A stretch of DNA of 64,000 nt from Chryseobacterium daecheongense (GTDB lineage: Bacteria > Bacteroidota > Bacteroidia > Flavobacteriales > Weeksellaceae). This document shows positions 45,003-64,000 of the stretch, piece by piece. Numbering within the stretch: the first letter of the stretch is position 1; each line of letters begins with the position of its first letter. The DNA lies in assembly GCA_027920525.1 (NCBI GenBank), contig CP115858.1, positions 1,550,001 to 1,614,000 of the forward strand, given 5' to 3'. The notes below the pieces were generated by a model, which saw only the letters and a list, made by a program, of their open reading frames with translations, made no database searches and was not told where the DNA came from. Both the position numbers and the translations under genes were made by a program.

Positions 45003-45185
45003 TTATAGTTGTGGAGTATTTGTTACAATCAGTTCCAGATCTCCTTCCTTAATAAGAGTTCCGTTTCCTACACGCATTGAATCCACTTTAAAACTGGAGT
45101 AATACACGTTCGGTAACTTAAACCAAAGATAAATATGGGAATCCGCTCCTACATATTGCCCCGCAGTAATCGCGGTACTTGTATC
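45003..45185 (-). pseudogene. C-terminal remnant of a lost gene
   Basis: On the minus strand a frame without a start codon reads D-T-S-T-A-I-T-A-G-Q-Y-V-G-A-D-S-H-I-Y-L... and runs for about 60 residues to I-V-T-N-T-P-Q-L and a TAA. The composition (alternating strands, one W, many Val/Gly) is that of a real protein end. It begins just after the stop of the fibre gene at 45218, in another frame, and has no Met before residue 37. It looks like the tail of an older gene cut off by recombination, or of a frameshifted extension of the fibre. Confidence 0.5.
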
Positions 45186-45217
45186 AAGACATAGATAACA
45201 GTTTATAAGTTTCGAAA

Positions 45218-47062
45218 CTAAGCTTCTATAGCCTCTGAAAATCTTGTAATAGAATTAATGTTAACAGATAAGTTAGCGTCTGTACTACTTGCAACTACTT
45301 CTAGTATATATCCATTCGCTGAAGAGATTGAGGCTGCATCAGCAATAGTATCATAATATAAAGAAAACTCGCCTGAACTTTGTTGTGGAGCAACCGTAAT
45401 TACTCCCATTAGAGAAAATCCACTCACAGGATTTTTCAGTCTGATTCCAAGGGTTAATGTATCTGATAAAGCATTTGTTCTATCAGAAAAACTACCCATA
45501 ATTCTCCATCTATGATTCTGTCCGGGAATTGGATTTTCTATTAATCTACCGGAATAAGTTGTTGATCCTCCATTTCTTCCCGAATCAAAGATTCCTTTAT
45601 AATTATTTGGTGTACTATTGGGATATTTTGTGACGGGTGAAGATACAATTGTTGGAGTAGCAATATTAATATTAAGTTGCTTATATGTATTGGCTGTAAA
45701 ATTAGAAACAGACAATCCTGCATAACTTACTTTTATCTGCCCAGATTCATTTTTTCTGGCGAATGCAACATTCCAGTTGTTAATATTTTGCTGTGAAAAA
45801 TCATTTGAATCCCAGTCTTTTGTCCATGGTGACCATGTTCCATTATAATAATACCTTCTGTAGGAATCATTGTATATTGAATACGTGATATACTCCTGAA
45901 CGATATGAGTGCTTGTTGCAAATACTTTTAAAAGTCCAGCGAGCAATACGGGGTGATTATTTTCAGGAGTAGCATTAGCAGTACCTCCTTGTATCCGAAA
46001 TCCAGTTGTCGTAATAGTATTAAGGTCAACATTACCAACTAATCCTCTGTATATCAACCCCTGTGTGAAAGCATTGTTCCATTGAGAGGAATCTCCGTGA
46101 TTTAAGGTAGTAATAGTACCTGTATTATTAATCTTAACAACTTCTGTTAAAGACACCGAACTCCCGTTGGTTCCAGAGTTTGTTGCATAATTAAATGAAA
46201 AATTCTTATGATTGTTTACTGTAAATCCCCATGATGCTAAACTTCCTCTGGGCTGAATAAAGTTTGTTCCATTGAACTGCAAATTATGTCCCATCCATAA
46301 ACCATATCCTGGTGTTGCACTTGCTACATTAGTATGAAACAATGCAGATCCAGTAGTCGTCTGGGTACCAAAGTTTAGATTGTAAGCATCAACATATTGT
46401 GTGCCAGCTGAACTAAGAATAACCTGACCTGCACTGGTACTATCGCCCTGTGGTCTTAAATATATGTTTCCTGCGGCTGTCTCTCCAGAAAGAATCAAAC
46501 TATATGTATTGGTTCTCACTTTATTTGTACCTTGCCTTTGAAGAATTAATTCTCCGGTGGTGCTGTTTATGTTTCCACTTAAATCAACATTTCCTCTCGT
46601 ATATTGATTTCCTACAGTGTCTAGGGCATATCCCGTAGTTGGAACAACAGAAGAACTGGCTCCGACAACGACACGCTGGTCAGAGGTCCATCTGATTGCA
46701 TTTTTACTGTTATAGGCTGATCCTCCAATATATCCCCAACTCAAATTTACAGCTCCGCTACTTGTAACGGTTCCGTAGTATCCAAATGTATCTATATCTC
46801 CGTTAGAACCTATTAGCTTTGTAAAATATCTTGAAAAATTAGAGCTAGTTGTTACACCGGACATATCTCTGGATATTCCGTTTGTATTTGTTTGCCCAAG
46901 ATTTATGCCGCCCGTCATTGTTCCTCCTGAAAGAGGCAAATAAGGTGCATCATTTGAATCTAGGTGCACATAGCTATCTATAAGGTCTCCAAACTGACTT
47001 TCAGTTGGTCTTTTTCCTGACTTAAAATAATTTTTTAATTCTGTGATGGATTTCTTTGCCAT
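45218..47062 (-). CDS. Tail-fibre-like protein with pyocin-knob-like segment (fibre 1)
   Basis: The 614-aa protein begins M-A-K-K-S-I-T-E-L-K-N-Y-F-K-S-G-K-R-P-T, then E-S-Q-F-G-D-L-I-D-S-Y, an anchor shared with the next two proteins. P-L-S-G-G-T-M-T-G-G-I-N-L-G (about 42-55) is a common phage tail-fibre motif. A long Gly/Thr/Ser-rich beta region follows. Near 340-405 a segment with I-T-T-T-G-F-R-I-Q-G-G-T-A, G-L-L-K-V-F and Y-Y-N-G-T-W-S-P-W resembles pyocin-knob domains of fibre proteins. The end lacks the coiled coil of the other two fibres and is instead a beta domain. No signal peptide. Probably a receptor-binding or adhesive fibre. Confidence 0.72.
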   Translation of the reverse strand: MAKKSITELKNYFKSGKRPTESQFGDLIDSYVHLDSNDAPYLPLSGGTMTGGINLGQTNTNGISRDMSGVTTSSNFSRYFTKLIGSNGDIDTFGYYGTVTSSGAVNLSWGYIGGSAYNSKNAIRWTSDQRVVVGASSSVVPTTGYALDTVGNQYTRGNVDLSGNINSTTGELILQRQGTNKVRTNTYSLILSGETAAGNIYLRPQGDSTSAGQVILSSAGTQYVDAYNLNFGTQTTTGSALFHTNVASATPGYGLWMGHNLQFNGTNFIQPRGSLASWGFTVNNHKNFSFNYATNSGTNGSSVSLTEVVKINNTGTITTLNHGDSSQWNNAFTQGLIYRGLVGNVDLNTITTTGFRIQGGTANATPENNHPVLLAGLLKVFATSTHIVQEYITYSIYNDSYRRYYYNGTWSPWTKDWDSNDFSQQNINNWNVAFARKNESGQIKVSYAGLSVSNFTANTYKQLNINIATPTIVSSPVTKYPNSTPNNYKGIFDSGRNGGSTTYSGRLIENPIPGQNHRWRIMGSFSDRTNALSDTLTLGIRLKNPVSGFSLMGVITVAPQQSSGEFSLYYDTIADAASISSANGYILEVVASSTDANLSVNINSITRFSEAIEA

Positions 47063-47069: not shown

Positions 47070-48218
47070 TTAATTTATTAAATTTTTTAATCTCTCAATT
47101 TCTTCATTTTGAGAAATCATATAAAGAGTCAGTTCTTCAATTTTCTGAAGTAATTTCATCTGGAAATCTCCGACTTTAATTCCACCTTCTATAATATTAT
47201 CTCCAGATGGAATTTCCGGAAGGTGTTTATTTTTTTTTATGAATGATTTCAGCTCATTTAACGTAGGCATTTGATAATCCGGTCTGATGGAAGAAGTATT
47301 ATCAAAATACTTTTGAAATACATAGTCGGCAGGAACATTGGCATCTACAATTACATCTTCTGCATGTATTTTTCCTTTTACAGTTAGCTTTTGATCCGGA
47401 TTTTGGGTTCCAATTCCCACATTACCTGCATCTCTGTTTAACACTAAGGTATTTCCTAATGGATTAATATGTAGTGGAGATCCGGCATGACTCTGAATCC
47501 ATGTGTTCTGTGTATTATACCCCATTCTTAAATTAGGCAATGTGGTATCTCCGATGATAACTGCACCTGGATCTTGCGGTTCGCTAAATGAACCGATAAT
47601 CTGTAATTTGGATTGAGGATTCGATGTTCCTACTCCAAAATTATTGCTATAATAAGTATAGTGTTTGTTCTGACCTATAACGGGACTGGCATATATTCCT
47701 GAAACTTTTGCGTTATCTACAACTGCTGTTCCTTGGGACTGCTGTACGATCCGCATACTATAAGGGTTCCCTGTGGATCGGGTGTGATAGATACTTAATT
47801 TGTACTGATTTAAGGTATCATCCCAGATAATATCTCCCACGTAAATATTGTCAACTATGGGTCCTGAAGCTTCCATAACCCTGGAAGCAGATGGATACCA
47901 AATATTGTTATCAGGATTTCCCCCAAAAATAATCTGTTTTCGAATTATTCCAATCGTATTTTCATTACTGTACGAGCCTACAATCTGAACTTCAAATTCA
48001 CCATTGACATAACCATTTCCCAGTAAAACATCAACGGCAAGGTCATTTTGCTGATGAGGAAAAAAAATGAAGAAATCTTTGTATTTGTAGCTTTCAGAAG
48101 ATAATCTTGGGTCATCCAAATGTAAATAGCTATCAATGAAATCACTAAATTGGCTTTCAGTTGGCCTCTTGCCTGCTTTAAAATACTCCTTTAACTCTTG
48201 TATATCTCTTTTCGCCAT
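47070..48218 (-). CDS. Tail-fibre-like protein (fibre 2)
   Basis: This 382-aa protein has the shared anchor (M-A-K-R-D-I-Q-E-L-K-E-Y-F-K-A-G-K-R-P-T, then E-S-Q-F). A domain starting Y-K-Y-K-D-F-F-I-F-F-P-H-Q-Q (about 44-175) is shared with fibre 3. A short beta region with N-P-Q-S-K-L-Q-I and N-P-D-Q-K-L-T-V-K-G repeats follows, then a C-terminal stretch H-L-P-E-I-P-S with a terminal coiled coil (L-L-Q-K-I-E-E-L-T-L-Y-M-I). This end recalls the tail-fibre trimerisation ends of Bacteroidota. No signal peptide. It lies 7 bases from fibre 1. Confidence 0.72.
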   Translation of the reverse strand: MAKRDIQELKEYFKAGKRPTESQFSDFIDSYLHLDDPRLSSESYKYKDFFIFFPHQQNDLAVDVLLGNGYVNGEFEVQIVGSYSNENTIGIIRKQIIFGGNPDNNIWYPSASRVMEASGPIVDNIYVGDIIWDDTLNQYKLSIYHTRSTGNPYSMRIVQQSQGTAVVDNAKVSGIYASPVIGQNKHYTYYSNNFGVGTSNPQSKLQIIGSFSEPQDPGAVIIGDTTLPNLRMGYNTQNTWIQSHAGSPLHINPLGNTLVLNRDAGNVGIGTQNPDQKLTVKGKIHAEDVIVDANVPADYVFQKYFDNTSSIRPDYQMPTLNELKSFIKKNKHLPEIPSGDNIIEGGIKVGDFQMKLLQKIEELTLYMISQNEEIERLKNLIN

Positions 48219-48220
48219 GA

Positions 48221-49681
48221 TTAATTTGTTTTTAAAACATCGATCTCTTTTTTCATTGAGATCATGTATAATGTTAATTCTTCTATTTTCTGAAGTAATT
48301 TGATTTGGAAGTCCCCAACTGAAAGTCCATTATCCATCATTTCTTTTGCGGAAGGGATTTCCGGAAGATGGCTTTTTTCGGAGATGAATTTTTCAAGATC
48401 ACCGATATCTCTTAAATGGTAATCCGACGCAAAGACATGGTCCGCAGTGGGTGTCGCAGTAATTACCACATCCTTTGCTTCAATTTTACCATATAAGGCC
48501 ATATTACCCGCATCTGATAAGAACAACCTTGGTCCATAGGTTCCATCTGTAGAATAGCTCCAGAATTGTAATCCATTACCATAGCCTCCTGTCATATTGT
48601 AGATTGCCCATTGGTGGGCGGTACCAGATGCTGTTTTGGCTGGATTTTGTAAGAGAAGAGCACCTCCTTCATTACTACTAACTTGTGATACCATAATTCC
48701 GCGTACATCCAATTTTTGTTGTGGGTTATCTGTGCCAATTCCAACATTTCCATTCGGGATTATCCTCATAAGCTCTGACATCGTAACGGGAGAATCCTGG
48801 GCAGCTTGCACGTAGTTAGAAGATAAAAATTTAATTCCTTCACCACCAACCGTTACCGCTGTCTTATAACCAGCGTAAGATCCATTACCTGATAGCCAGC
48901 CATAAGCCGTCTGATTATCAGCTTTAACGCCATAACCCATGTAAGTTTCTGCGCCACTTCTTAATGATCCCCAATTGTTTACAGATCCATTTTCATAACG
49001 GATGGAAAATGCATTGATTCCTTCTGTAGCATCACTTCTACCAGCCTGAACATTACCCCATACATCCAGTTTAGATTTTGGGTTATCAGTTCCTATTCCA
49101 ATGTTTCCATTATAATATACTGAATGCTTTTTTTGCTCAACTAATGGTTTAACATATATATCAGAAAGCCTTGCCTGATCTACAAATGCCTTATCATAAG
49201 AAAACTGTTTGATTCTTACAGCATATGGGTTTTGATTGGGGCTTGTATGATAAATAGTGAATTTATATTCATTTCTTGCGGAGTCCCATACAATATCTCC
49301 AATGTAAATACTTTCCAAAATGGTTCCTGCTGCTTCTACAACTCTGGCCGTAGTAGGATACCAAACATTTCCATCAGGATTAAGCCCTACTTCAAATTGT
49401 TTTTTTATAATACCAACACTTGTCTGATGCGAAAATGTACCTGTAACTTCAACTTCAATACTTCCATTCAGATAATTATTTCCTAAAAGGACATCTACAG
49501 CCATATCACCTTGCTGATGAGGAAATTCAAAGTATAAATCTTTATATTTATAATTATCAGGGAAAATAGTTTTATCGTCTAAGTTGGAATAGCTATCCAA
49601 CAAATCCCCGAACTGGCTTTCTGTCGGCCGCTTTCCTGCTTTAAAATATTCTTTTAAAGCTGCTATTGTTTTTTTTGCCAT
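48221..49681 (-). CDS. Tail-fibre-like protein (fibre 3)
   Basis: The 486-aa protein is a paralogue of fibre 2: the same anchor, the same Y-K-Y-K-D-L-Y-F-E-F-P-H-Q-Q domain (about 44-190), repeats such as N-P-K-S-K-L-D-V-W-G and N-P-Q-Q-K-L-D-V-R-G, and the same end (H-L-P-E-I-P-S-A, then L-L-Q-K-I-E-E-L-T-L-Y-M-I). It has about 100 more residues in the variable middle (about 210-390). Constant ends around a variable middle suggest exchangeable receptor-binding parts. It is 2 bases from fibre 2; an 84-base gap with a hairpin separates it from the 1590-aa gene. Confidence 0.72.
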   Translation of the reverse strand: MAKKTIAALKEYFKAGKRPTESQFGDLLDSYSNLDDKTIFPDNYKYKDLYFEFPHQQGDMAVDVLLGNNYLNGSIEVEVTGTFSHQTSVGIIKKQFEVGLNPDGNVWYPTTARVVEAAGTILESIYIGDIVWDSARNEYKFTIYHTSPNQNPYAVRIKQFSYDKAFVDQARLSDIYVKPLVEQKKHSVYYNGNIGIGTDNPKSKLDVWGNVQAGRSDATEGINAFSIRYENGSVNNWGSLRSGAETYMGYGVKADNQTAYGWLSGNGSYAGYKTAVTVGGEGIKFLSSNYVQAAQDSPVTMSELMRIIPNGNVGIGTDNPQQKLDVRGIMVSQVSSNEGGALLLQNPAKTASGTAHQWAIYNMTGGYGNGLQFWSYSTDGTYGPRLFLSDAGNMALYGKIEAKDVVITATPTADHVFASDYHLRDIGDLEKFISEKSHLPEIPSAKEMMDNGLSVGDFQIKLLQKIEELTLYMISMKKEIDVLKTN

Positions 49682-49765: not shown

Positions 49766-52700
49766 TTAGTTAGGGCTAACGATAAATGTTTGCTCGATAA
49801 TCATTCCATCGGTCCCATCTGAAGAAATTCCACCGATTGTCGTCGAAGAGTCCGGGCTATACAGAGTAATAATCCTTTCATCTTTACTAAACATCCCTGA
49901 TGTGTTTTCTGTGGTAACCTTAAAATGATAATAAATAGGATTTCCATCTACATCCTTTACTGTAAGAGGGTCTAACCCTAATTTTTCTAATCGCAGGAAA
50001 ATTGTTTTATCACTAATGTCAAAGATTTCTTTAGGAATCCATGCCTCAGTGTTAGTCTGAGGATCATTTTCAAAAAGAAACAACTGTACCTTTGAAGTAT
50101 TATTTGAAAGGATATTCATTCTTGCTACTTCTTTCCAGTTTCCTTGATTAGTCATCTGATATAAATGATATTTACCTTTATAGCATTGTTCTTTCCAGCT
50201 CAGCAGACCTGAAGTCACAACATTTCCTATAATCGGATTGGATTCAAATTTCAGTTCCGGTGATTCCGGTAAGGCGTTTTCTGTAATGGTTGTAATCATC
50301 AATTTTGAAGCTTCAGAAGGTGCGTATTCTGTTACAACTACATCAGATTGATTGTTTCCACTATAATTTGCTTCTGTATATTCTACTTCAGCCTCTACCG
50401 TTACGCGATAATATAAAGGATCTCCGAACGGAACTTCAGATAAATCGGCAAAGTTATCTTCTAAAGTCCAGACTTCATTATCTAACAGCCCTGTAGCTTC
50501 AAGATTAAGATCTTTCACCAACTTCATTGTTCTTACTGAAACAGCATCTTCTATATTAAGAGAGCGGTATAATTTTGCTTTCTTAATATTGTAGATTTTA
50601 TTGTATGAATTGATGGTTACCTGCATTTTAGGTACAATATTCTCTTCTGTGTTTTCTAAGACAGGAATAACACTTTTAATTTCAGGCGTCCTTAATGGGA
50701 ACGAGTTGATCATTTTCACAGGACCTACTGCAGGGCTTAATTCCCCTTGAACTAACTGAGCATTCACTTCTTTTACTGAATAGAAATACACACTTGTTGA
50801 AGCTCCATCTAATGTAAAATCAACAAATAATGTTTTATTGTTTCCCACCGTTTTCATCATAGGAGCCATATCAAATTTAGGGTCGGCAGGGTTCAAATAA
50901 GCTCCATTTTCGCCCCTGATTACCTGAGCTTTTGGAATGGGTTGATAATCTCCTCCTTTTATATGCTGATAAAGAATCGGAATCTCCGTTAATGGAACAA
51001 ATGAATTCTGAATTGTTTGTTTTACGAAATCATAAAATGTCAGTCTTCCAAATTGCCCGTTTGGATCAGCAGGAATGATTTCATAAAGCATATCTGTAAT
51101 TTGATCATATGTTACAGGTGCTATATCATCGTAGTATTTATTATGTTCTAAAATAAATTCATTAATACTCTTGAGAAATGCTTTATTATTTGGCATTGGC
51201 AGGGCATAACCATTATATTCCCTAAACTTTTTCGTATTAGTATCAATAGTCGCATTCGCTAATTCCAATAATCTTGCATTAAAGTATTCATCATTATTCT
51301 TAAGACGGATATCTTCAACTGAATTAACTGCAGGGGTCGCATTATACCCTTCTGTATATTCATATAAAGAGCTCAGAAGAATATCATCATTACTACGAAG
51401 ATACATTACACTAAATGGCCTATGTGCAAAATTTGTAGTAAAAGCATATGATGAACGTCCAAAATAGTCTGGTCTTGTAGCATATTTGGCTCCTAATGGC
51501 TTATCTGGAGTTTCAGGAGCTTCGATTCTTCTTCCAAACATCATTGTAGGAATGGAAATTCTGGATTTGTAATCAGAATAAGTAAGATCGATGGTTCTGG
51601 TTCCGAAAATACTGTATTTTTCAAGGATATCAGGATCCTGAGGAATAACATAATCTTTCGTCAGGCGACATGGAGCATTATAATGAAGGTACACTCTATA
51701 TCCCGGATAGAAGTTAACTTCTTCTACTCTTGGTGGGGTGTCCGGCTGTAAAGGATCGGTTGCAAATAGCTCATCCAGAGCAAAAAGCCTTAGGTTGCCA
51801 GTTCCGATATTGTCTATACGGATTACTTTAAGAGTCCGTTTTTCTTTGCCTTGTTGACCGTCTATGGAAACCCTAACACTTCCTTTATACCATTGTACAC
51901 TGTCAGCTCCTGCGACAGTAGAATATTGAGGATGATTATTCAATACAAACGACTGAAAATTAAGCTCATACAACCCAGCAAACGGAGCACCCTGAGTATC
52001 GGCCCTTTTAATATTGGCTAGTTTTTTAATTCCTCTGAATTTTCTGAAGTACGTATTATAAGTTACATCAGGAGCTGCTCCGGACTCTACCGTAATTTCT
52101 TCAGTATAGACAGGCCAGTTATCCCCGATCTGAATTTTAAGCGGATGTGGATTTGCCGTTCCCCAGGTTGATGTATTCTGCATATTTTCGATCACCATAA
52201 ATGATTCATCTGCATTTGGTACTACAAAATTGGCAGGATCAAAAACAACAGGTACATTCTGACCAAAAGCATTCCCGACTTGCTTTTTGTAAATATAGAA
52301 GATTGGAAAATTCGGGTCTGCACCGGATACAATATTATCAATAATATAATCATCCGCTCCTACTTTAAAAATACCTCCTATGTAGTTCTGAAAAGAAGCC
52401 GCAGGAATTGAGGGCGTCATAGCCTGATTGGCTCCAGCGCTACTTAGTTGTAAAGCTTTGGTAGTAACCACAGACACTAAAGGATTTCCAGATAGATCTG
52501 ATATTGTATCAATCATTCCGAATACCTGATTTGGAATTTCAGGACGGAAAAACACCTCTATTTTATCAGCAAACAATTCTTCATTATCCGGAAGGGGATT
52601 AAAATCATTTAAATCTGTTCCATTAATAGCTTTGTGATAGGAAATCATATCTTGCGAAGCATCATATTCCATGGTTAATCTTATCAAGGTCTTATCATTG

Positions 52701-54538
52701 GCCGGATTTAGAGCATACATATCCTGCTCATTCTGTGAAGTAAGCAACAATGGTTGTTCTTGCTGAACTAAAAATGCACTCACACTGGATGGTGGTAACA
52801 AAGTGTTTGCAGGTCTTATTTTTGATTCTACCTCCCAGGTCGTCTCAGAGGACTGTGCTCTCGAAAACCAGTTGACACCATAAGAACCATATACATGTTT
52901 TCCTGATTTTGTCTCTTTGTGTACATAGGCAGGATTTCCAAAGTCTGGAAGTGCAATAGCGACTGTCTCGTTATGGGCTTCTGCGCCATTTGAAAATACA
53001 TTCTGGAAGTTAGGGTCATTGGGTAGTTCAGGAAGTCTCCATTCTAGTTCATCACTTGATCTGTATTCAATACCCACATGAACAGGATAAGTAAACTTAG
53101 ACATATCAAATTCATGATTGGTATAATAGAATGTACTATCAGCTGGCTCATCGGGCATAAGCTCTTCAATCATCAAACTTAAATACCTTCCCGTACCATC
53201 GTGGGTATATCCCTCTGCATCAGTAAGCCCACTCATCGTAGTTCCTGCTGTAGGATCCGCAGATACCATTCCCGGAACCGGTTCTTTTAAATTGATTGGT
53301 AGACATAACCTCTGATCATCAAGTGCAGTAGGTAAAGTAATGTAAATATGATTACGCTCGTTCTGACCTTGCCCGTTGCCTAAATCCGCCATTGTAACAT
53401 AGTAAGCCGCATACATATACTTCTCTCCGTTGTAAACTTCATCATGGATATCCAAGTGTCCCAATCCTAACATTCTGGAAACATGGTAGTCAAGTGCTGC
53501 CATTTGCAAATTGTTGAAATGAGAAAATTCAAGCGGATTAGGATCACTCTCATCATCATTAAGATAATAATGATCAATAGCTAAAGGATTTGCTGCATCG
53601 TTACTCAATTCTAAGTATCTCTTGACCGAATCCATAATAGTACTCTGAGGATCATCTAAGCCATTCCATCTTCTCTGATAATTTTTGATATTTACAAACT
53701 CTCCATCATTGTACCTTGCCCAGGAAGCATGTACGGGACGATTGCCTGGATCAGGATCAAGTCTTCGATGCAGCACTTCACTGTCATCAAGAGAAAGTCC
53801 AAATATTCCGATCTCCTCCCACTGACTTTTATAGGCAAAATCTTCATAAAATTCAAAATCAATTTTTGTAATAATGGTTCCCGAAGGTAAAAATCGAATG
53901 CTTCTGCCATTTTCAGCAAATATTTTTTCTGAAAAGTCTACAATATTTTTCCTGAAAGTCACATTTTTAGGCAGCCCCAAAAGATCTGTTTCTACTGACA
54001 AAACTTCCGTTTTTGAAGTACCCGGTGATTTTGGGGTAAGTTGCGTAGAGAAAAATAATTTTTCTCTACATTCAACTTCAATAACATTTTTCCCGTATTG
54101 TTCTAAAAATTCCTCTGGATTTGAAAACGGATCTACATGACCTCTTACTTCATTGTATTTATTAAGATTTCTGAAATACACATAAAACATACTTACTTCA
54201 CGGTTTCCATAAAGCCATAAACCTTCAGAATCAATAACGGTTCTTGGAGAATCCGTTAGATAAAGACTTCTTGCCTGAGGAAAGTACGGTGTTCTGAATA
54301 CTCTTACGAAATCGTCTTCCTTATTTAAACCTTTTGGTGGACCAGAATAATTATCCCCTTTAGGTAAATGTTGTTCAACAGGACCTTTCAGGGTCCATCT
54401 TAAATGAATTCCCGGAGTACTGTCATCTCCTTTGGATCCGGCAGCTTGCATATATAGGCAATTCGACTGTAAAAGGACATTATCCATAGGAAGTGATCCT
54501 GAAGCCATAGTTGTATTATTATTTATATTAGATGACAT
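49766..54538 (-). CDS. 1590-aa modular beta-rich protein, unknown function
   Basis: The protein begins M-S-S-N-I-N-N-N-T-T-M-A-S-G-S-L without a signal peptide. An N-terminal domain has T-P-G-I-H-L-R-W-T-L-K-G (about 42-53). The long middle is mixed beta with many Asp/Asn-Pro turns. The last 300 residues look like fibronectin-III-type modules (P-L-Y-Y-R-V-T-V-E-A-E; P-I-Y-Y-H-F-K-V-T-T-E-N). I see no catalytic motif and no T9SS sorting domain. It follows the 2196-aa gene after only 4 bases, so the two are made together and may form one complex. A structural or binding role is a guess. Confidence 0.7.
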   Translation of the reverse strand: MSSNINNNTTMASGSLPMDNVLLQSNCLYMQAAGSKGDDSTPGIHLRWTLKGPVEQHLPKGDNYSGPPKGLNKEDDFVRVFRTPYFPQARSLYLTDSPRTVIDSEGLWLYGNREVSMFYVYFRNLNKYNEVRGHVDPFSNPEEFLEQYGKNVIEVECREKLFFSTQLTPKSPGTSKTEVLSVETDLLGLPKNVTFRKNIVDFSEKIFAENGRSIRFLPSGTIITKIDFEFYEDFAYKSQWEEIGIFGLSLDDSEVLHRRLDPDPGNRPVHASWARYNDGEFVNIKNYQRRWNGLDDPQSTIMDSVKRYLELSNDAANPLAIDHYYLNDDESDPNPLEFSHFNNLQMAALDYHVSRMLGLGHLDIHDEVYNGEKYMYAAYYVTMADLGNGQGQNERNHIYITLPTALDDQRLCLPINLKEPVPGMVSADPTAGTTMSGLTDAEGYTHDGTGRYLSLMIEELMPDEPADSTFYYTNHEFDMSKFTYPVHVGIEYRSSDELEWRLPELPNDPNFQNVFSNGAEAHNETVAIALPDFGNPAYVHKETKSGKHVYGSYGVNWFSRAQSSETTWEVESKIRPANTLLPPSSVSAFLVQQEQPLLLTSQNEQDMYALNPANDKTLIRLTMEYDASQDMISYHKAINGTDLNDFNPLPDNEELFADKIEVFFRPEIPNQVFGMIDTISDLSGNPLVSVVTTKALQLSSAGANQAMTPSIPAASFQNYIGGIFKVGADDYIIDNIVSGADPNFPIFYIYKKQVGNAFGQNVPVVFDPANFVVPNADESFMVIENMQNTSTWGTANPHPLKIQIGDNWPVYTEEITVESGAAPDVTYNTYFRKFRGIKKLANIKRADTQGAPFAGLYELNFQSFVLNNHPQYSTVAGADSVQWYKGSVRVSIDGQQGKEKRTLKVIRIDNIGTGNLRLFALDELFATDPLQPDTPPRVEEVNFYPGYRVYLHYNAPCRLTKDYVIPQDPDILEKYSIFGTRTIDLTYSDYKSRISIPTMMFGRRIEAPETPDKPLGAKYATRPDYFGRSSYAFTTNFAHRPFSVMYLRSNDDILLSSLYEYTEGYNATPAVNSVEDIRLKNNDEYFNARLLELANATIDTNTKKFREYNGYALPMPNNKAFLKSINEFILEHNKYYDDIAPVTYDQITDMLYEIIPADPNGQFGRLTFYDFVKQTIQNSFVPLTEIPILYQHIKGGDYQPIPKAQVIRGENGAYLNPADPKFDMAPMMKTVGNNKTLFVDFTLDGASTSVYFYSVKEVNAQLVQGELSPAVGPVKMINSFPLRTPEIKSVIPVLENTEENIVPKMQVTINSYNKIYNIKKAKLYRSLNIEDAVSVRTMKLVKDLNLEATGLLDNEVWTLEDNFADLSEVPFGDPLYYRVTVEAEVEYTEANYSGNNQSDVVVTEYAPSEASKLMITTITENALPESPELKFESNPIIGNVVTSGLLSWKEQCYKGKYHLYQMTNQGNWKEVARMNILSNNTSKVQLFLFENDPQTNTEAWIPKEIFDISDKTIFLRLEKLGLDPLTVKDVDGNPIYYHFKVTTENTSGMFSKDERIITLYSPDSSTTIGGISSDGTDGMIIEQTFIVSPN

Positions 54539-54542: not shown

Positions 54543-57500
54543 TTAGTTTATTTTAATATTTTCAGCAACAATTTTTGTGGAAATTTCATATTCATTTCCT
54601 GTCCACGTTTTATAAATGAACTGGAAGTTCATTTCTTCTTCATTAATAGATTTTTCTGAATTCATGATAAGAACTTGAGCATAATCTTTTGAATAAATCG
54701 CTTCATAATTGGTATCAACAACCGGTTTTCCTGAACTATTCAGTTTCATAACTTCAACCATTCCATGATTATCAGGATTACTAAGGTCAACCCCGATTCC
54801 TTTTACTCTATTGATCCTTTCAATCGGAATTTTAGGATGATTAAATGGTTCCGGATTTCTTACAAGGATGGCCACCGTTTTTCCGGTTTGTGAATTAATA
54901 ATTCTATTAAATTCAGTAGTAGGAGCATCTTCCTGTGGTGGAATACCAAACAGTCCTTGTACAATTCTATCGAATGGGTGTTGGTATTGCATAGCAATAG
55001 CCTGGCTTAAAGCATTGTTACATACAGCTTTTGGATCTGTTTTAATAATATCCCATGCTGCATTTAACTTATCCGCCGTTAAATATTTTTCAATAGTATA
55101 AACGGCCTGCTTTTCTTTTTCAACTCCGTTTTCATCCTTAAATTTTATATTAAAGCTGTTTACCTGATCTTTAAAATCCTGATATCTGGAAGTCTGAAAT
55201 ACAAATTTGTGAACCTCTTTGGCATAGTTTATTTTAATATCTTCGGTTATTTGAGAAACATCAACAGTATTTTTTCCCCAGTAGAAATTAAGAACCTGCG
55301 CCGTATAAAGCTTTTGTGGTTTCAATTTCTTAGGTTTTATTGATCTGTAAATAGATTTAGGCTTAACCATTGTTATAATTCCTGTACAATTATCCCCACT
55401 GTTCAGTAAATTAAAATACTGATCCATTACAGGTGGAATAGCAGGATTTAGGTCTTCTGCCCATTCTTCAAAAGTCTGTGGAATATCTACCGGTGAAGTT
55501 TCAATAACTTCTTCAGGACCGTCCAGCATAGGAGGATTAATAATCGAAATTCCTTCCACAGGATCTTTAATAATGATCTTCATGGTACCACCAAGCTTTT
55601 TCATTCCTGCATAATCATCCCATCCGCTTAAGAGTTTAGATACATAACTTGAAGTAAAGTACATCGATATTTTTGTTGTTTTATCACCATAGAATAATGG
55701 TTTTGCACTTACAATATTTCCATCCGCATTTGGATAAGAACGCTCATAGTCAATATAAGCCCTTAATGAGGTATGAGGATATAAATCCGGATGTGGAGTA
55801 AGATTATCTCCATCAATAAGATTGCCGTTAGGTTCCCGGATCTTACCAATCGTATCTTCAATAACATTTAAAGAATCCTTGATAGGAATCTCACCATATG
55901 TTGCATCTTTATCCAGGTGGAAGAATCCTAAAGGACCAGCAGTACGGAAGGCATAAGCATAATCATAAGTTCCCTGGGCTATGCCGTTATCTACATTATC
56001 TTTCAGTTTAAATCTTACATAATAAGAAGTATCGGGTCTCCAAATCGGCTGAATAGATCTCGTCAATGCAGCTACTGCAGCTTGAGTATCCTCTGTAATA
56101 GCAGCTTGGGAAGGGATATTTACATTATAAGAATAATCATCTACTGATAACCATTGGATTTCATGGAAAAGGGTAAAGCACTTTTTCTGGCTGTCACAAT
56201 TACCTAATTCTTTCAGAATAGAGATAATTTCTTTACATGCATTCTCAAATTTATTTTTGTAGAAATGGTATGCATTCGGACCTTCCTTAATAATAATCTC
56301 GATCGTAGTAATCTGCCTTTGCAAAATTTCATGGAGATATTCATACCCGGAATGTTCTTTAATAAATTGATAATAAGCATCCAGAAATGGAGAAGAAACA
56401 GTTCCCGGTTGAACGTCAAGATCTGCAAATTCCTGGTAGGAAAGAAAATTACTGAAACTGCATAAAGTCTGATCTTCACATAAATTCATTCTCTGAAGCA
56501 AGCTGTTAATCTGCTTCAACTTGGTTCTCAATTTATAAAAACGATCCACAATTTCCGGGAAATTGTCTGGATTCATATTCAGATATCCACTTAAGTCTTG
56601 CAAATATTCGTAATATCTTTTCACGTTAATTTCCAAAATAGCAGATGGAATACCTGCTGATTCCAAAATGTGCAGAACTTCTTCAAAAATACCAGATTGT
56701 ATATTTTCTCTGATCAGCTGAACGTAGTTATATTGCTCAACTCCCGGTGACATTCCCTTGGTATTGAAAGGAAGGAAAAATCTATTATTATAATATCTTA
56801 CAAGTTCAGGGAATATTTTACAAACAATTTCATATTTCTCTTTTCTTAGACCTTCACATCCCCTAGACTGCAATTCGGATAATTTATATTCTAGCTCAGC
56901 ATATAAAGCAGGATCACTTGGCAATACCTGATTGATTACTCCTCCCTGTTCAAGGGCAATCTGATATCCCTGATCCATTAAATCTGCCATCTGCTGAAGG
57001 ATAATATCAATCTGAGCCTGATCCGTCACATCAGGAGTAATCACAATTTTCGTAATTCCACTATTTGGAATTTCCTGAGGAGAAACCGGATTCTGAAGCT
57101 CATCTTTTGAATAATATTCATACCTTACATCATATTGTACAAATGATTGTGTATTTGTAAGATCAATCAGTGGACTGTAATATGCCACCGTTACTCCAGT
57201 ACTATATGTACTTAGTTTTAATTTAATTTCTTTCGATGGATTGGGAAGCATGACCGTAAGCGAAGAATGGTTTTTAAAGAGCAGTGATTGCGTAAAACCA
57301 TGAATATTTATTTCATCAGAAACTTTGGCATGATCCCCTTGCATTACAGGATTTCCATTCGCGTCAACGGTATATTGTACGTCTCCTGAAATCTGATATG
57401 ATGCTCCTTCACTCTGGAAGAAATTAGAGGCTGAGGCGTAATAAAGTGTATTCAATGGTTTCTCTAAGAAATCAGAAACAGAATTCTCAATATGCTGTCC

Positions 57501-60500
57501 TTCACAGAATAATGTAGAAGCCATAATTCCATATTGTTCAGGAATAAACCATCCTGGATTTCCTTGTTCGGTATACGAGAATGGTGTCATTCCCAATAAT
57601 CTGATCGCGTTGTACTGATTATCTTTTTTCTGCCATTGTCCGGCTTTAAGATTATTCAACTGTGTATTTCCTGGCTCCATCGCTTTAAAAGGATCATAAG
57701 CAACCCACCCCGATGTTCCGTCATTAGCTAAAATTTCAATTTTCTCCAATGAATATTGATGTTTCACCTGTCTTAATTCAAGGCCTTTCATCACTTTATC
57801 TGGTGGTATAAGATCTACAGAATTGCCTGCAGGGTTAGTAAATCCGCCGATAATATTACTCGTTGCTGTACTAGGAAGTAAGCCTTTAGTCGTTTTGATA
57901 TCAATATAAGTGTCCAAAGGAACTACGTTTTTAATAGAATCAAAAACAGGTAAACTATTAGGACTTACTTTCGCCAGATCAAATGTTTCATTCGTCAACA
58001 TACTGATTCCTTTTACAAGACTCTCTGTTTGTGCCGGAATCTCAGTAAATGGATTTACCGGATCTCTCTCTACGGTCTTATTGAATTCCCATTTAAGCTC
58101 AACCTTTACACTAAAGCTAATCTTAAAGAATAAAATCTTTAATTTAAATGCGACACTAAATGCTCCATAAATCAGGAATGGCTTTGGAGATTCTACTGCA
58201 AGAAGGATAGTTACAGAAGCATAAATACGGATGATCTTCACATCGATATCAATGGCCAGCCCCGCTTCAAAATAAGCACCCATCTGAGGCTTTTGGAAGC
58301 TTATCTTACCTCCGAGTTCCAGGTATGCAAGCACAAAGATCTTAACCGGTCCGAATTTTCTGTCAAACCTGAATTCTCCTCTTGCACCAGCCTCGATCCC
58401 TTTTCCGGAAATCATTAAGAAGGCTTTCAGAGTAAATAAATCTTTCAGTAATTTGGCCTGAATTGGATTTTGTTTTGTCCCGAAATTAATATACCATGCT
58501 GATGGATTATTAAAGAAGAAACCGGCCTGGATTTCTGCGTACAACTTAATAATATCTCCTGAACTTTCAGGGAATTTATAATCTGCTCCGAATCCGAATT
58601 CCAATGAATTGTCACCGAAAATAAAGAAAGCAAAGAATGGTGGATCATCCTGATAAGTTACCCTACTCGAAAGGAGTTTCATTCTCGCATCCACCATAAC
58701 CATGGATGGAAGTGATAATAGTAACATCGCATTGGCTGAAATAATATTTCCATTAGCCATCGTATCTCCCAGTAGTGCGCCTACACCTAAAGAGAATGGG
58801 AAGCTATATTCTTCCGTCTGATCCGGACGACTGAACTTTTTCACTCCGACTCCCCTTTCTGGAGCTGTATAGTACTCATACCAGGTATTCTGGGATGTCA
58901 TTCCTATCGCTTTTTTCTCTGCTACATAACGATAACCAAGCAACCCACGGAATCCATAGATGGATACTGGTCCTAAAGCAATCGGGTTGGGAAGTTCAAT
59001 ATTCGCATCAATAAGGAATGCAGGATATTTTGGTGCTAAACGCATATCTACCCCACCTGTAATTCTTGGATTTTTCACTTTAAGGCTTACCCCACCCTGA
59101 TATTCCTGGAATTCTCCAGGCTCAGGAATAGATAGCCAACCTTTGATCGAAACTGTAGGATCACTTGAATTAGCTGGAATAACCATATCTACGTGAATAG
59201 TCTGAATATGAAGATATGAATCATGATCTTTTCCCGGACCATCATCAATTGTATAATAGTACTTAATTCCATCTCCACGGGCGTCGATCCCTGCAACTCC
59301 AATACTTACTCCACCATCAAAACCGAAGTAATTGTATTTACGAATATGATCTCCGAATTGTCTTTCATGAGAACCAAAGTGAATGGCTGTTACTGAAACA
59401 TCTACAGGCCCAATAGGAATTTTAATTGGCTTTGGAAGAACAAGATTACCTCCATTCACTCTAAAATCGATGCTACCATCACTGTAAATTCTTAGGGTAG
59501 AAATACTTAATGTCTGACCTTTAAGTATTGTTCCTAAATAGCCTAAGAATTCGACATCAGCCGAAGCACCAATAAAAAACTTACCATCCTCTTTTCCAAG
59601 TTCTACTGATTTCAAGTGAAGTTTGAAAACTTCCGGTAATGTAATAGTAGGATCGAATGGTGGTACAGCAGCTCCTGTTAAACGGAAGTCTCCATCAGCC
59701 TCCAAATGTCCCGTAACATCTATGGTAGCCTCTGCCCCATTTGAGCTTTTAAATTTTGGAATTACCATCCTTGCTTTAATGTTAGATGAAACGATATCAT
59801 TTTGTTTGAAAGCAATATCAAAAGAATTAAAACCTATTTTCCAAGACTGCGCACTATTTTTATCTAATTTCACCCATAAGAAATCTGCCTGTCCTGGAGC
59901 ATTTCCGGTATCAATAGCTTCGAGGGCGATTGTTCCTGAAACTCCTCCTGTTCCAATCAGAAGATGTTTTCCTGATATTTTGAGTGTTTGACTTACTGTT
60001 GCATCTTTAGAAAACCATTTCTTTGGGAGTATAATATCTGTTTGTTCTGTATAAACCCCCATAAACTCTGGTGGACGACCATCCTCATCTGCCTCAGGAA
60101 AATTCGTTTTAGTACTTAAATCTATTTTTAAATTGTGAATATTAACAATAAGGCCAGTATTTCCTATTTGTACGGGTGTTACTGTATTTATTACTAAATC
60201 CATATTATAGCCTAAACCTTGTGTAGTATCTGCAGAAAACACGGCTTCCGCGAAAGTAAAGATTGCTTTAGGTTTTTGTTCTTTTATAGGAACATTAGAG
60301 TTATTTGCAGGAATAACCTCGTAAGAAACATCCGTATTATTTATTATTGTTCCTTCAGGATAAACAGGAGTTAACATATTCCTTGGAAATTCAATTCCAG
60401 CTGAAAGTGCTAATGTTGCACGAGCTTTAGGCAATATAATATCTTTGATAAATCCTGCAATATCAGTTGGAGCAATTTCAGAAAAAATAGTTTTTAACTT

Positions 60501-61133
60501 ATTATTTAAGTCATCAAACGAACCATTAGTTAAGTATAAGTCTAATACAACTTCGTACACTGATATATTTGCCTGGGTATTAATCTCCTGAACAATAGTT
60601 CCAAGATCATTTTCGCCATTAGGCGGGACTACAATTGATGTACCATAATGTGTATTTATATCAGAAACCAATTGGTTAATCCTTAATAAAGATGAATTAG
60701 AATCTAAAAGGTTTTTTAAAATTAAACTTAAAATTTCCTCTTCTGTAATATCAAAAATTTCAAGTAATAAATTGAAATAGTCCTTTATAGAAAAGGAAAT
60801 ACTATTTAGATTGAATGAATTTCTATATGTTAATGCTTTCCATTCCCATGCTACTGTAAATGGAAAAGATGAAATATCATTATTTTGAAAATCAGGATTC
60901 AGAACAAAAAAAATGTTTGTTCCTGGAATTTCAATCTCTAGTTTTTGTAAACTAACAATATCTAAGCTGTAAAATGCAGCATCCCCTTTTATGCTTTTTG
61001 AAAATTGTAAATTTTTATAGTATGTTTTATCAAAAAGAAATACAATTCCATCACGTACAAAAGATAGTATTTCAGGAATGTCATTGATGGTAGCAATCTC
61101 AGATATAGCTGGGTAATATATTGGTTGAGACAT
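54543..61133 (-). CDS. 2196-aa giant beta-rich protein, unknown function
   Basis: Start M-S-Q-P-I-Y-Y-P-A-I-S-E without a signal peptide. About 1-300 is mixed alpha/beta. About 300-1050 is a long series of amphipathic beta strands with Gly turns (G-N-L-V-L-P-K-P-I-K-I-P-I-G-P, F-D-G-G-V-S-I-G-V-A-G, I-T-G-G-V-D-M-R-L-A-P) ending in the very hydrophobic F-K-L-K-I-L-F-F-K-I-S-F-S-V-K-V. About 1450-1700 is helical with C-x5-C pairs. The last part is beta-sandwich-like (Y-Y-V-R-F-K-L-K-D-N, Y-A-Y-A-F-R-T). The middle recalls large bacterial DUF6603-type proteins, but I cannot confirm this. It lies 17 bases after the 219-aa gene. Confidence 0.7.
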   Translation of the reverse strand: MSQPIYYPAISEIATINDIPEILSFVRDGIVFLFDKTYYKNLQFSKSIKGDAAFYSLDIVSLQKLEIEIPGTNIFFVLNPDFQNNDISSFPFTVAWEWKALTYRNSFNLNSISFSIKDYFNLLLEIFDITEEEILSLILKNLLDSNSSLLRINQLVSDINTHYGTSIVVPPNGENDLGTIVQEINTQANISVYEVVLDLYLTNGSFDDLNNKLKTIFSEIAPTDIAGFIKDIILPKARATLALSAGIEFPRNMLTPVYPEGTIINNTDVSYEVIPANNSNVPIKEQKPKAIFTFAEAVFSADTTQGLGYNMDLVINTVTPVQIGNTGLIVNIHNLKIDLSTKTNFPEADEDGRPPEFMGVYTEQTDIILPKKWFSKDATVSQTLKISGKHLLIGTGGVSGTIALEAIDTGNAPGQADFLWVKLDKNSAQSWKIGFNSFDIAFKQNDIVSSNIKARMVIPKFKSSNGAEATIDVTGHLEADGDFRLTGAAVPPFDPTITLPEVFKLHLKSVELGKEDGKFFIGASADVEFLGYLGTILKGQTLSISTLRIYSDGSIDFRVNGGNLVLPKPIKIPIGPVDVSVTAIHFGSHERQFGDHIRKYNYFGFDGGVSIGVAGIDARGDGIKYYYTIDDGPGKDHDSYLHIQTIHVDMVIPANSSDPTVSIKGWLSIPEPGEFQEYQGGVSLKVKNPRITGGVDMRLAPKYPAFLIDANIELPNPIALGPVSIYGFRGLLGYRYVAEKKAIGMTSQNTWYEYYTAPERGVGVKKFSRPDQTEEYSFPFSLGVGALLGDTMANGNIISANAMLLLSLPSMVMVDARMKLLSSRVTYQDDPPFFAFFIFGDNSLEFGFGADYKFPESSGDIIKLYAEIQAGFFFNNPSAWYINFGTKQNPIQAKLLKDLFTLKAFLMISGKGIEAGARGEFRFDRKFGPVKIFVLAYLELGGKISFQKPQMGAYFEAGLAIDIDVKIIRIYASVTILLAVESPKPFLIYGAFSVAFKLKILFFKISFSVKVELKWEFNKTVERDPVNPFTEIPAQTESLVKGISMLTNETFDLAKVSPNSLPVFDSIKNVVPLDTYIDIKTTKGLLPSTATSNIIGGFTNPAGNSVDLIPPDKVMKGLELRQVKHQYSLEKIEILANDGTSGWVAYDPFKAMEPGNTQLNNLKAGQWQKKDNQYNAIRLLGMTPFSYTEQGNPGWFIPEQYGIMASTLFCEGQHIENSVSDFLEKPLNTLYYASASNFFQSEGASYQISGDVQYTVDANGNPVMQGDHAKVSDEINIHGFTQSLLFKNHSSLTVMLPNPSKEIKLKLSTYSTGVTVAYYSPLIDLTNTQSFVQYDVRYEYYSKDELQNPVSPQEIPNSGITKIVITPDVTDQAQIDIILQQMADLMDQGYQIALEQGGVINQVLPSDPALYAELEYKLSELQSRGCEGLRKEKYEIVCKIFPELVRYYNNRFFLPFNTKGMSPGVEQYNYVQLIRENIQSGIFEEVLHILESAGIPSAILEINVKRYYEYLQDLSGYLNMNPDNFPEIVDRFYKLRTKLKQINSLLQRMNLCEDQTLCSFSNFLSYQEFADLDVQPGTVSSPFLDAYYQFIKEHSGYEYLHEILQRQITTIEIIIKEGPNAYHFYKNKFENACKEIISILKELGNCDSQKKCFTLFHEIQWLSVDDYSYNVNIPSQAAITEDTQAAVAALTRSIQPIWRPDTSYYVRFKLKDNVDNGIAQGTYDYAYAFRTAGPLGFFHLDKDATYGEIPIKDSLNVIEDTIGKIREPNGNLIDGDNLTPHPDLYPHTSLRAYIDYERSYPNADGNIVSAKPLFYGDKTTKISMYFTSSYVSKLLSGWDDYAGMKKLGGTMKIIIKDPVEGISIINPPMLDGPEEVIETSPVDIPQTFEEWAEDLNPAIPPVMDQYFNLLNSGDNCTGIITMVKPKSIYRSIKPKKLKPQKLYTAQVLNFYWGKNTVDVSQITEDIKINYAKEVHKFVFQTSRYQDFKDQVNSFNIKFKDENGVEKEKQAVYTIEKYLTADKLNAAWDIIKTDPKAVCNNALSQAIAMQYQHPFDRIVQGLFGIPPQEDAPTTEFNRIINSQTGKTVAILVRNPEPFNHPKIPIERINRVKGIGVDLSNPDNHGMVEVMKLNSSGKPVVDTNYEAIYSKDYAQVLIMNSEKSINEEEMNFQFIYKTWTGNEYEISTKIVAENIKIN

Positions 61134-61810: not shown

Positions 61811-61877
61811 ATTATTTGGTATTATTTGGTAAATGTTGTAATGATGCACCTATTGAATAATTACGATTTACCATGTA

Positions 61878-64000
61878 TTATATTTCTCTGGTTACAATCG
61901 AATTCTTTTTCATAATGTTCCACTGATACTTACTGGTTGTCGTTCTATAACCGGTAGTGAGAGATGTCCCATTTTTATGATAATCCATAACATTGTCTGT
62001 TATATATTCTTTCATAACATATAAATTTAGGTTCACAAAACTATGGTGCAACCCAAGCCCGTGCATGGATTCGTGTCCTGAAGTATTAACATCATTTATA
62101 CTGGAAGGACTTGCTTGATATAATCCCGAACGATACAAGATAACTTCCGGAGTATTAATATCTTCTACTTCCCCATTAGTGATATTTAAGTTACCCCCGG
62201 TTAATGGATCAGCACAAAACTCATTGATACAGAATATTCTCATTTCACGCGTAGTCCGATCAGCTATAGGTATCCGGTTTCGAACATAAGAATGAGACAC
62301 ATGAGGATTCAAATATGTTGTTCCCATTGTGGCATAAGTGGTGTAAAAATTAGGAATTGTCGCTCTTGTTAAATCTAAAGTAATTGTCCTAAATGCCTTC
62401 ACATCAATTAAAGATTGGTTCAAGGTCCTATTGATTTCACTTAATATTTTGTTTCTAATAGGAAAAGGACTTGTTGTTTCAAAACCTGTTACTGTATTAC
62501 TAGTATCTAAATTAGTACTACAGTTTACCAATAAAATATTCGTTTCAAATCTATAATTTTTAGCGTTTGGGACTACTTTCAGCTCTCCCGCAAATTTCTC
62601 TACTCCACCTTCGGTGGACAAGCATTGAATAGTTTTTACACTTGAAAATTCATTTTTAGCTAAAATTTCAATTTCTAAAGATCCTGGAAAGACACCTGAG
62701 GAACTATTATTTATTTTTAAATTAGTAAAAACATTTCCGAGTTCGTCCGTTGTATCTGGTAAAATGGTTGTAGAAGATGCGTTGATTGATCTGATATCAA
62801 AATGCTTTTTTTCAAATTTTAATTTTAAAAGAGAAACAGAACCAGGAGAAGTTAGATTAAAAATTAAGTTTAATCTTACAGTTGTTAAACACTTTAAATT
62901 TCCTTCCTCATTTGTTTTAGGAAAAACAGTTGATACACCTGTTGCATCCTTTGATGGATATATCGACAACCAAGGTGAAAAATACATAGATTCAAGTCCT
63001 TTTTGTCTAGGATACGAGAAAAAATTTTGTGAAAATGAATGAAACTCTGTTTTTTCTGCTTTAAAAAAGACATCATTATCATCTTTCTGAGTGAATGTTC
63101 CATCCAGATAATAATGCCCTAAAGTTTCTAAATACTTTCGGTTACCTAAATCACCTGGAAGACCAGAATCTTGAATCCTTACCCAATCAAAACCATATTC
63201 TCCACCCCATGAATTTTTGGGTCTAAAGTGCACCTCATTCTCCGACACAACTAAAGAAAACTCCTGATAATCAGAATATTCTTTTGAAAAAAAGAATAAT
63301 CCATCTATACTATAAACTTCTACCAGGTTTGTACCAGTTGGATACCTTACTTCCAGACCCCCAGCAGTATTTTCAAATTTCAATCCTACATTATACTTTT
63401 TATAGCTTTCGGTATTTGTTGAAGCAACCTCATTTAATTGAATTGAAATATTACTAGCATCCTGGGGCAGATGTGGTGTTGAAGGAGTAGTCGCAGGAGG
63501 TGAAGGATTGTTATACAATAATTTATTGTATTCTTCTTCAGTAATTCCAAATAAGAAAAATTTTTCTTTTAAGCTATTATTTACTTTATGAACTAAGGAC
63601 AATGTGGAAATAGTATTTCCATTATCATTAATTTTACCTTTATATACCGCATATCCTTTGTCGTTAAATAAAAAAGATGCCAATTCTTCAGTATTTGTAA
63701 TTGCTTCACTTACTTTTGAAACATTAAATGCACTAGTGTTTAAGTAACTTTTTTTCTCACCTCCGTGTGTATCTGTAATACTAGTAATATAGAGTTTTCG
63801 TTTTTTGGAGGCGCCTGCCGCATTCTTTCCATAATCACTATAAACTTTTTGTTGAGTTACTGCATTATTGAATTTTAATAAACTCCACAAATTCACTAAA
63901 TTATAACGATTCAAAAAATGAATCTTATTGGTACCACTTGTACCTTCAAAAATATCTTTCGTATTAAATGTCCATAGATCATCAGTATAATTTTCTAATG
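61878..64000 (-). CDS. Metzincin-like zinc metalloprotease, N-terminus cut by window
   Basis: The frame is open to the right edge: before the first possible start (a TTG at 63914) it continues without a stop for 28 more codons, so the true start is beyond base 64000. The C-terminal part holds G-H-E-S-M-H-G-L-G-L-H-H-S-F, an H-E-x-x-H-x-x-G-x-x-H zinc motif, and D-N-V-M-D-Y, a Met-turn: both marks of metzincins. It ends S-K-Y-Q-W-N-I-M-K-K. The N-terminal part has a Pro/Thr linker and a beta domain with G-E-Y-G-F-D-W-V-R. No signal peptide can be judged. It may be a secreted effector or toxin. Confidence 0.75.
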   Translation of the reverse strand, partial: LENYTDDLWTFNTKDIFEGTSGTNKIHFLNRYNLVNLWSLLKFNNAVTQQKVYSDYGKNAAGASKKRKLYITSITDTHGGEKKSYLNTSAFNVSKVSEAITNTEELASFLFNDKGYAVYKGKINDNGNTISTLSLVHKVNNSLKEKFFLFGITEEEYNKLLYNNPSPPATTPSTPHLPQDASNISIQLNEVASTNTESYKKYNVGLKFENTAGGLEVRYPTGTNLVEVYSIDGLFFFSKEYSDYQEFSLVVSENEVHFRPKNSWGGEYGFDWVRIQDSGLPGDLGNRKYLETLGHYYLDGTFTQKDDNDVFFKAEKTEFHSFSQNFFSYPRQKGLESMYFSPWLSIYPSKDATGVSTVFPKTNEEGNLKCLTTVRLNLIFNLTSPGSVSLLKLKFEKKHFDIRSINASSTTILPDTTDELGNVFTNLKINNSSSGVFPGSLEIEILAKNEFSSVKTIQCLSTEGGVEKFAGELKVVPNAKNYRFETNILLVNCSTNLDTSNTVTGFETTSPFPIRNKILSEINRTLNQSLIDVKAFRTITLDLTRATIPNFYTTYATMGTTYLNPHVSHSYVRNRIPIADRTTREMRIFCINEFCADPLTGGNLNITNGEVEDINTPEVILYRSGLYQASPSSINDVNTSGHESMHGLGLHHSFVNLNLYVMKEYITDNVMDYHKNGTSLTTGYRTTTSKYQWNIMKKNSIVTREI

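Follow-up and report, generated by a model that had tools for sequence, protein, structure and literature searches.

A probable polymorphic-toxin island with its own giant proteins in Chryseobacterium daecheongense and its relatives

Introduction

How would a cell put to use a set of giant and fibre-like proteins that seem meant to act outside, when none of them starts with a signal peptide? The question is raised by a seven-gene operon of Chryseobacterium daecheongense, which lies at the end of a stretch of 64,000 nucleotides (bases 1550001-1614000 of the closed 4.86-Mb chromosome, hereafter the window). All of its genes are on the minus strand and encode, in this order, a carrier protein (P), a protein of 219 amino acids (aa; P219), two giant proteins of 2196 aa (D) and 1590 aa (B), and three fibre-like proteins. 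The original prediction, made from the letters of the window alone, described seven same-strand genes ending at a terminator with a 14-bp stem, saw no signal peptide in the six proteins complete in the window, and pointed out that signal-less proteins meant to act outside need explaining. Coordinates, gaps and hairpin agree with this description (Table 1), and a simple hydropathy scan found a signal-peptide-like N-terminus in 0 of the 7 proteins, full-length P included (the highest score, 1.78, is that of D; the rule is 2.0). We share the view that this needs an explanation.

We think it probable that the locus is a polymorphic-toxin island equipped with a giant-protein apparatus of its own, and that it stands for a class of polymorphic-toxin complex not described before; no account of the gene set was found in the open-access literature searched. 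In the mechanism that we propose, P and a second carrier (X) would each join a constant front to a swappable C-terminal effector, with the next gene encoding the matching immunity protein, whereas D and B would form the invariant giant core of the complex and fibres with a phage-type N-terminal adaptor would give target specificity. The proteins, having no signal peptides, would fold in the cytoplasm and would probably be freed by cell lysis, like Tc toxins, after which the complex would bind other cells via its fibres and deliver the effector. In this genome the effector would be a protease of the metzincin type, with the envelope of the target or the space outside it as the expected place of action. 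The original prediction had also mentioned an undescribed export system. This came near the mark with the direction inverted, since swappable effectors, immunity genes and the lysis-type genes beside the set in many relatives point to a delivered toxin complex and not to a secretion apparatus.

Results and discussion

A movable set of genes that recurs together

Of 117 relatives, 19 were found to carry B. In a sample of 395 genomes from across the phylum, B and D were each found in 6, which are the same genomes in both cases and include this one. A scan of named genomes with B gave 97 loci, and the best 80 were retained; the upstream sequence was long enough to judge in 74 of these, and D lies immediately upstream of B in 72 (the exceptions are L104 and L106). 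When thirty B-bearing genomes were searched for D, all thirty were positive, and P stands upstream of D in 39/39 regions read, which come from 38 genomes including this one (P in L203, from Bacteroidales, was assigned by BLAST clustering only). D and B are open frames in most copies across genera, and a few copies are split. The set was seen in Chryseobacterium, Flavobacterium, Mesonia, Kordia, Tenacibaculum, Dokdonia, Microscilla, Saprospiraceae, and Bacteroidales, and also in one Ignavibacteria bin. The original prediction had reasoned that ordinary genes upstream, together with a failure of the genes to occur together elsewhere, would speak against it: the upstream genes are indeed ordinary, and the genes do recur together.

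The insertion site of this genome was read in ten relatives, at least five of which have no island there. In L209, L212, L213, L214, and L218 the topoisomerase III-like gene that adjoins the island here lies at most 2 open reading frames (ORFs) from an EamA-like gene or metN, and neither D nor B stands in the interval; the remaining five either have additional genes in this interval or were read over too short a flank. B is present at another place in the genome in two of the ten, G006 and G010. A tyrosine-recombinase-like gene, named by eye, stands beside the set in four loci and in the viral contig L303. That the set is a movable gene island is well supported.

Carriers with exchanged C-terminal ends

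The comparison of P (40 rows, two being halves of one broken gene) separates two forms. Behind the short form (676-797 aa, 22 cases) there is in every case a gene for the second carrier X, longer than 700 aa. The long form (1020-1344 aa, 16 cases) is extended at its C-terminal end. The P of this genome is complete at 1144 aa (L003:878-4312) and starts outside the window as the first gene of the operon, so that the 678-706 aa read in the window are its C-terminal part. Its C-terminal domain has a metzincin fold, which bears out the metzincin-like protease of the original prediction, and HExxH occurs in 9 of the 16 long P. Among the seven long P that lack this motif, six were scanned: Peptidase_C15 scored above the cut-off in one (39.1 bits) and below it in another, and nothing matched in four. 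By eye, C15-like motifs are seen in three more C-terminal ends of P, one of which has a Pfam match below the cut-off, and LAS-type peptidase motifs in those of Winogradskyella and Mesonia. Nearly all homologues of P are annotated as hypothetical, one being called a zinc metalloprotease; searches of P against PDB sequences gave nothing, and a viral structure library gave no meaningful match. In L177, L180, L191, and L192 a gene of ~1000 aa of the F11 family stands directly before long P, itself mostly preceded by a gene of ~400 aa.

The carrier X varies in a similar place. In the pairs G086/G393, G086/phragmitis, and phragmitis/poyangense, the front ~700-800 residues are ~40-85% identical and the last ~200 are at background. 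As the background of these global alignments is near 25% identity, only drops from well above it were counted as swaps. EndoU_bacteria matched two of ten X C-terminal ends above the cut-off (50.8 and 35.6 bits) and one below (22.1 bits), and a toxin deaminase matched one of the ten below the cut-off (17.0 bits, cut-off 29.6). A deaminase-like motif can be read by eye in two X C-terminal ends. EndoU is also listed as a precomputed Pfam domain in 8 of 30 X homologues, one of them a query sequence. A peptidoglycan-binding domain was found in the X of 19STA, which belongs to family F22, and in the corresponding gene of G003, the other F22 members lying outside the scan. Neither the P, D and B of this genome nor the two X tested matched a trafficking domain of Pfam or NCBIfam. 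Taken together, the sequences give good support to P and X as carriers with a constant front and swappable, predicted toxin-like effector domains at the C-terminal end.

Candidate immunity genes matched to the effector compartment

If these ends are effectors, the gene that follows each carrier should protect against it. We judged the gene next after each long P (n=16) and, for short P, the gene after X (n=21; in one further case no gene was left to judge). Under one hydropathy rule, an export-signal-like start is found in 15/16 genes after long P and in 2/21 after X (Fisher p 2e-7). The two exceptions after X, polytrichastri and 19STA, both stand behind an X of the separate family F22, and a Tenacibaculum gene after an F22 X falls just under the rule and reads as a lipoprotein by eye. 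From this distribution it follows that exported next-gene proteins accompany envelope-type effectors and that cytosolic ones accompany effectors of the nuclease type, the pattern expected of toxin-immunity pairs. Tandem arrays of paralogues, such as five genes of ~367 aa in L196, also fit immunity genes. Directly upstream of P in this genome, beyond the window, lies LP244, a paralogue of P219 (57% identical) with a lipoprotein-like start, which P219 appears to have lost. The stretch upstream of P219 (window 61811-61880, compared with L003:5780-5910) reads by eye as a degenerate remnant. That the gene next to each carrier is its candidate immunity gene is well supported, and because these immunity-like proteins divide into exported and cytosolic ones, the compartment targeted by each variant can be tested directly.

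These pairs bear on two other explanations. Giant beta-rich proteins and fibres, with no lysis genes seen beside the island here, could also form a surface-displayed or secreted adhesin/protease cluster of unknown export route that has no toxin-immunity function. We regard this as unlikely: the proteins lack signal-peptide-like starts, the exchanged effector ends come with compartment-matched next genes, and a nuclease domain such as EndoU would be hard to explain on an adhesin. An island with toxin domains and immunity-like genes would also suit a cell-internal defence system acting by abortive infection. A PADLOC defence system was rejected, as none of 4 proteins matched, and the export of immunity-like proteins, like the phage-type fibres, implies that the system acts outside the cell that makes it, which leaves this reading with the faintest chance of those that we considered.

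The giant core proteins

Few relatives of D and B came to light. Pfam finds nothing in the seven proteins as read from the window, nor in full-length P, and B matches no family of NCBIfam or PADLOC either. A PHROG search at E 0.001 gave no family for D, B or the part of P inside the window. Against PDB sequences, among which Tc structures are present, the D profile gave four rows (E 0.097-0.46), none of them a Tc subunit, and the B profile gave no match up to E 1. Homologues of D are annotated as hypothetical wherever listings gave names. Some of them have a remote likeness to DUF6603 (PF20248), with 31.9 bits in P0108 (cut-off 27), 25.8 in P0114 and no match at E 0.01 in P0097, whereas the D of this genome has no match; DUF6603 is named in no paper of the open-access literature searched. 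No sequence relative beyond this domain was found for D, and none for B. In Dokdonia, a second partial D-like frame lies next to an Amidase_2 gene and away from the main island (G523:C23:389536-391331).

In a model of residues 1-1190 of D, the stretch 236-1016 forms a long antiparallel beta meander. For ~662-1003, the best-ranked VIA entries are porins, with a root-mean-square deviation mostly of 10-13 Å, and therefore we claim no barrel for D. The amphipathicity of the D strands is 2.92, against 1.44 (standard deviation 0.17) in within-strand shuffles, which points only weakly to a membrane role because ordinary beta strands of P score 2.59. Whole-model searches of P and D with Foldseek gave nothing, at template-modelling scores of ~0.1. 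We infer that D may act as a membrane-inserting translocator or pore, and that P or X, D, B and the fibres would be assembled into one complex.

A more specific version is offered tentatively, as possible rather than probable. P, D, B and the fibres would form a new non-contractile, lysis-released, fibre-targeted toxin-delivery particle, in which the ~35-strand amphipathic beta meander of D (with ~662-1003 aligning to porins) would insert into the outer membrane of the target and pass the effector. Periplasmic effectors would be fused to P and cytoplasmic ones carried on X.

Fibres probably borrowed from phage tails

The three fibre-like proteins share the N-terminal adaptor LKxYFKxGKRPTExQFGDLIDS. 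Tail-fibre families of PHROG match FIB486 (1e-10) and, weakly, FIB382 (1.5e-4), and FIB614 has no PHROG match; the fibre-like proteins of the original prediction thus prove phage-like. Among 75 judged loci, a fibre gene with the adaptor (LKxYFxxGxxPTxxQFxDLIDS) follows B in 42, a related start (KFxNGDIPSxxDFVEIFDxFVH, by eye) in 23, and neither in 10. The adaptor is common in viral contigs, with 88 relatives among 109 matched stretches (79 loci kept), and therefore the fibres were probably borrowed from phage tails.

Could the whole set then be a decayed prophage or a phage tail module? Besides the tail-fibre matches, seven genomes have a lysis cassette with a gene that we take to be DUF3164-like, tyrosine-recombinase-like genes stand beside a few copies (by eye), and one IMG/VR contig holds the set. 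However, D and B remain open in most copies across genera, though a few are split, and scans of viral contigs found none with B and a single one with D, which also carries B. As the B scan missed a B-bearing contig later found via D, such scans are no proof of absence. In the viral contig L303 the set is complete (P, X, a small gene, D, B, and a fibre), and, judged by its name, the contig comes from an isolate genome. We consider a prophage origin of the whole set very improbable. The filing of L303 as viral is possibly a false call caused by its fibre and recombinase-like genes.

Lysis-type genes as a possible release route

Just upstream of P, G086 has a row of three genes, for a transmembrane protein of 95 aa, a CHAP endolysin of 150 aa and a lipoprotein of 166 aa whose C-terminal part has a transmembrane stretch. 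This is the gene order of a phage lysis cassette, with holin and spanin roles taken from topology by eye. BLAST found the same three gene families in six more Flavobacterium genomes (seven in total), and the row lies directly before P in 5/7, two genes intervening in L177 and L180. Other lineages have Amidase_3 or Amidase_2 genes without a signal-like start after the fibres. Counting any of the three hydrolase families, 17/30 genomes have a peptidoglycan hydrolase gene no more than 25 kb from D and in the same orientation, against 1.03 expected. The 17 genomes were read off by hand, and the Poisson p of 1.7e-15 overstates the significance because the span of 25 kb was chosen after seeing the neighbourhoods and the genomes are related. 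G528 was left out, its Amidase_2 within 11 kb being of the long type found in other Chryseobacterium; its inclusion would give 18. These genes suggest lysis as the release route.

Comparison with known systems

Polymorphic toxin systems combine a constant front with swapped C-terminal toxins, such as EndoU and peptidases, and adjacent, diverse and sometimes tandem immunity genes (Zhang et al. 2012, PMC3482391). P and X have the conserved carrier with recombining C-terminal domains. Toxin-type ends are represented by EndoU in relatives, Peptidase_C15 in one relative and the metzincin fold here. The neighbouring immunity-like genes are adjacent, diverse and tandem, as judged by position, signal and paralogy, with no immunity family in the four scanned. 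The set differs in that P, D and B of this genome have neither a trafficking-domain match nor a signal-peptide-like start, and in its obligatory giants D and B. Hence three of the five listed features are found, a known trafficking marker is lacking and toxicity is a prediction from sequence; with three of five present, we call the set a putative variant of polymorphic toxin systems.

TANFOR toxins of the same phylum are also large carriers, with EndoU among their toxins and a toxin sometimes on the next gene; ~87% of TANFOR proteins have a Sec signal, and they are linked to substrates of the type IX secretion system (PMC7073777). Here there is no signal-like start (by the hydropathy scan only), and D, B and fibres are present. 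The TANFOR class was rejected, none of 7 proteins matching TIGR02542.

Tc toxins are likewise giant multi-protein toxins without signal peptides, with a lysis cassette in or near some operons; they are freed by a type 10 secretion system, that is by lysis, and the cassette may lie elsewhere in the genome (PMC10847048). The D and B profiles matched no Tc subunit in the PDB and Pfam finds no Rhs repeat in B, D or P, whereas phage-type fibre genes and immunity-like genes belong to the island set. In outline the set would work like a Tc toxin, but membership among the Tc toxins is not supported.

Known routes of antagonism in the phylum include the type VI secretion system and contractile particles. 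The type IX system is a hypothesised further route (PMC7073777). If the proposed toxin delivery is true, it would add a weapon class to the phylum and give a use to the DUF6603-like giants.

Points against the proposed complex

Several observations weigh against this explanation. The model of D is weak (predicted template-modelling score 0.42, mean predicted local distance difference test 72.8) and B has no model. Similar X C-terminal ends stand behind dissimilar fronts in G036/FH1 and G331/Sd200, so that exchange is not confined to the C-terminal end, and 6 of the 10 X C-terminal ends scanned lack a toxin-type match, even below the cut-off. P219 is the sole case after a long P without an export signal. 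Four next-gene proteins (P219, L034 of 304 aa, L186 of 656 aa, and L196 of 368 aa) have no match to an immunity family of Pfam, and that of L196 matched RHS_repeat. No peptidoglycan hydrolase or lysis gene was seen by eye among the flanking ORFs of the island in this genome, and only 1/6 Chryseobacterium genomes among the 30 counted is hydrolase-positive. The fibres carry an adaptor that belongs to phage tails, but nothing was found to which it would dock. Finally, two genera have a contractile system next to the island, which makes some contractile link possible.

Extracellular contractile injection systems carry toxin payloads, and their fibres have a similar N-terminal adaptor. The original prediction had suggested that the operon could be the far end of a contractile particle; the fibres and effectors would then belong to a particle with its sheath, tube and baseplate genes at another place in the genome. 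The fibres share the phage-fibre adaptor, the fibre of a Mesonia contractile system beside the island starts similarly, and among 31 genomes (this one and 30 with the island) sheath (PF04984) is matched in 10, 6 of them over the cut-off, and tube (PF06841) in 12. Yet neither sheath nor tube is matched in this closed genome, 19 of the 31 genomes have no tube match, and D, B and the window part of P lack PHROG relatives at E 0.001. Reading past base 64000, as the original prediction had advised, showed by eye no sheath or tube genes in the ORFs of the next 37 kb. No AAA+ ATPase, baseplate or spike gene was recognised by eye in the translated flanking ORFs, no profile search having been aimed at them. 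A contractile particle seems quite unlikely, and we keep to the polymorphic-toxin complex. The Mesonia system (L189:723-15158) adjoins the island divergently and has sheath-, tube-, spike- and baseplate-like genes, a DUF4157-like toxin and a fibre, all labelled by eye except the tube. Salegentibacter L195 has a matching row of genes, with tube genes, at the same place.

Operon layout and neighbouring genes

The features of the operon and its border are collected in Table 1. The intergenic gaps are 7, 2, 84, 4, 17, and 67 bases. Over both strands, the terminator scan listed 15 sites, where shuffled sequence gave 10.6 ± 3.3. The operon hairpin appears in the list once per strand, and of the other sites listed, two had a stem of more than 9 pairs.

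Table 1. Features of the operon and of the adjoining border, in window positions
Feature	Position	Strand	Description
FIB614	45218-47062	-	fibre-like, N-terminal adaptor
FIB382	47070-48218	-	fibre-like, N-terminal adaptor
FIB486	48221-49681	-	fibre-like, N-terminal adaptor
B1590 (B)	49766-54538	-	1590-aa giant conserved core protein
D2196 (D)	54543-61133	-	2196-aa giant conserved core protein
P219	61151-61810	-	putative immunity protein for P, no signal peptide
P	61878 to past window end (64000)	-	conserved carrier front and C-terminal metzincin domain, predicted effector
Intrinsic-terminator-like hairpin	44938..44969	-	14 pairs, 4-base loop, T-rich tail; closes the operon
GNAT-like host gene (name from sequence)	44513..44806	-	97 aa; one island border
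Topoisomerase III-like host gene (name from sequence)	42234..44354	-	706 aa; adjoins island border

Past LP244, the genes are ordinary and divergently oriented; from their sequence we take them to be an EamA-like exporter followed by metN-, metI-, and metQ-like genes. A patatin-like phospholipase of ~590 aa lies downstream of the set in five loci of several genera (L065:15216-16985, L089, L093, L105, and L126), with a PF01734 match of 48.3 bits in L065. About 34 kb past the window end, this genome also carries an R-body gene, RebB (Killing trait, PF11747, 101.6 bits; L004:17103-17405), near two-component-like genes and further ORFs.
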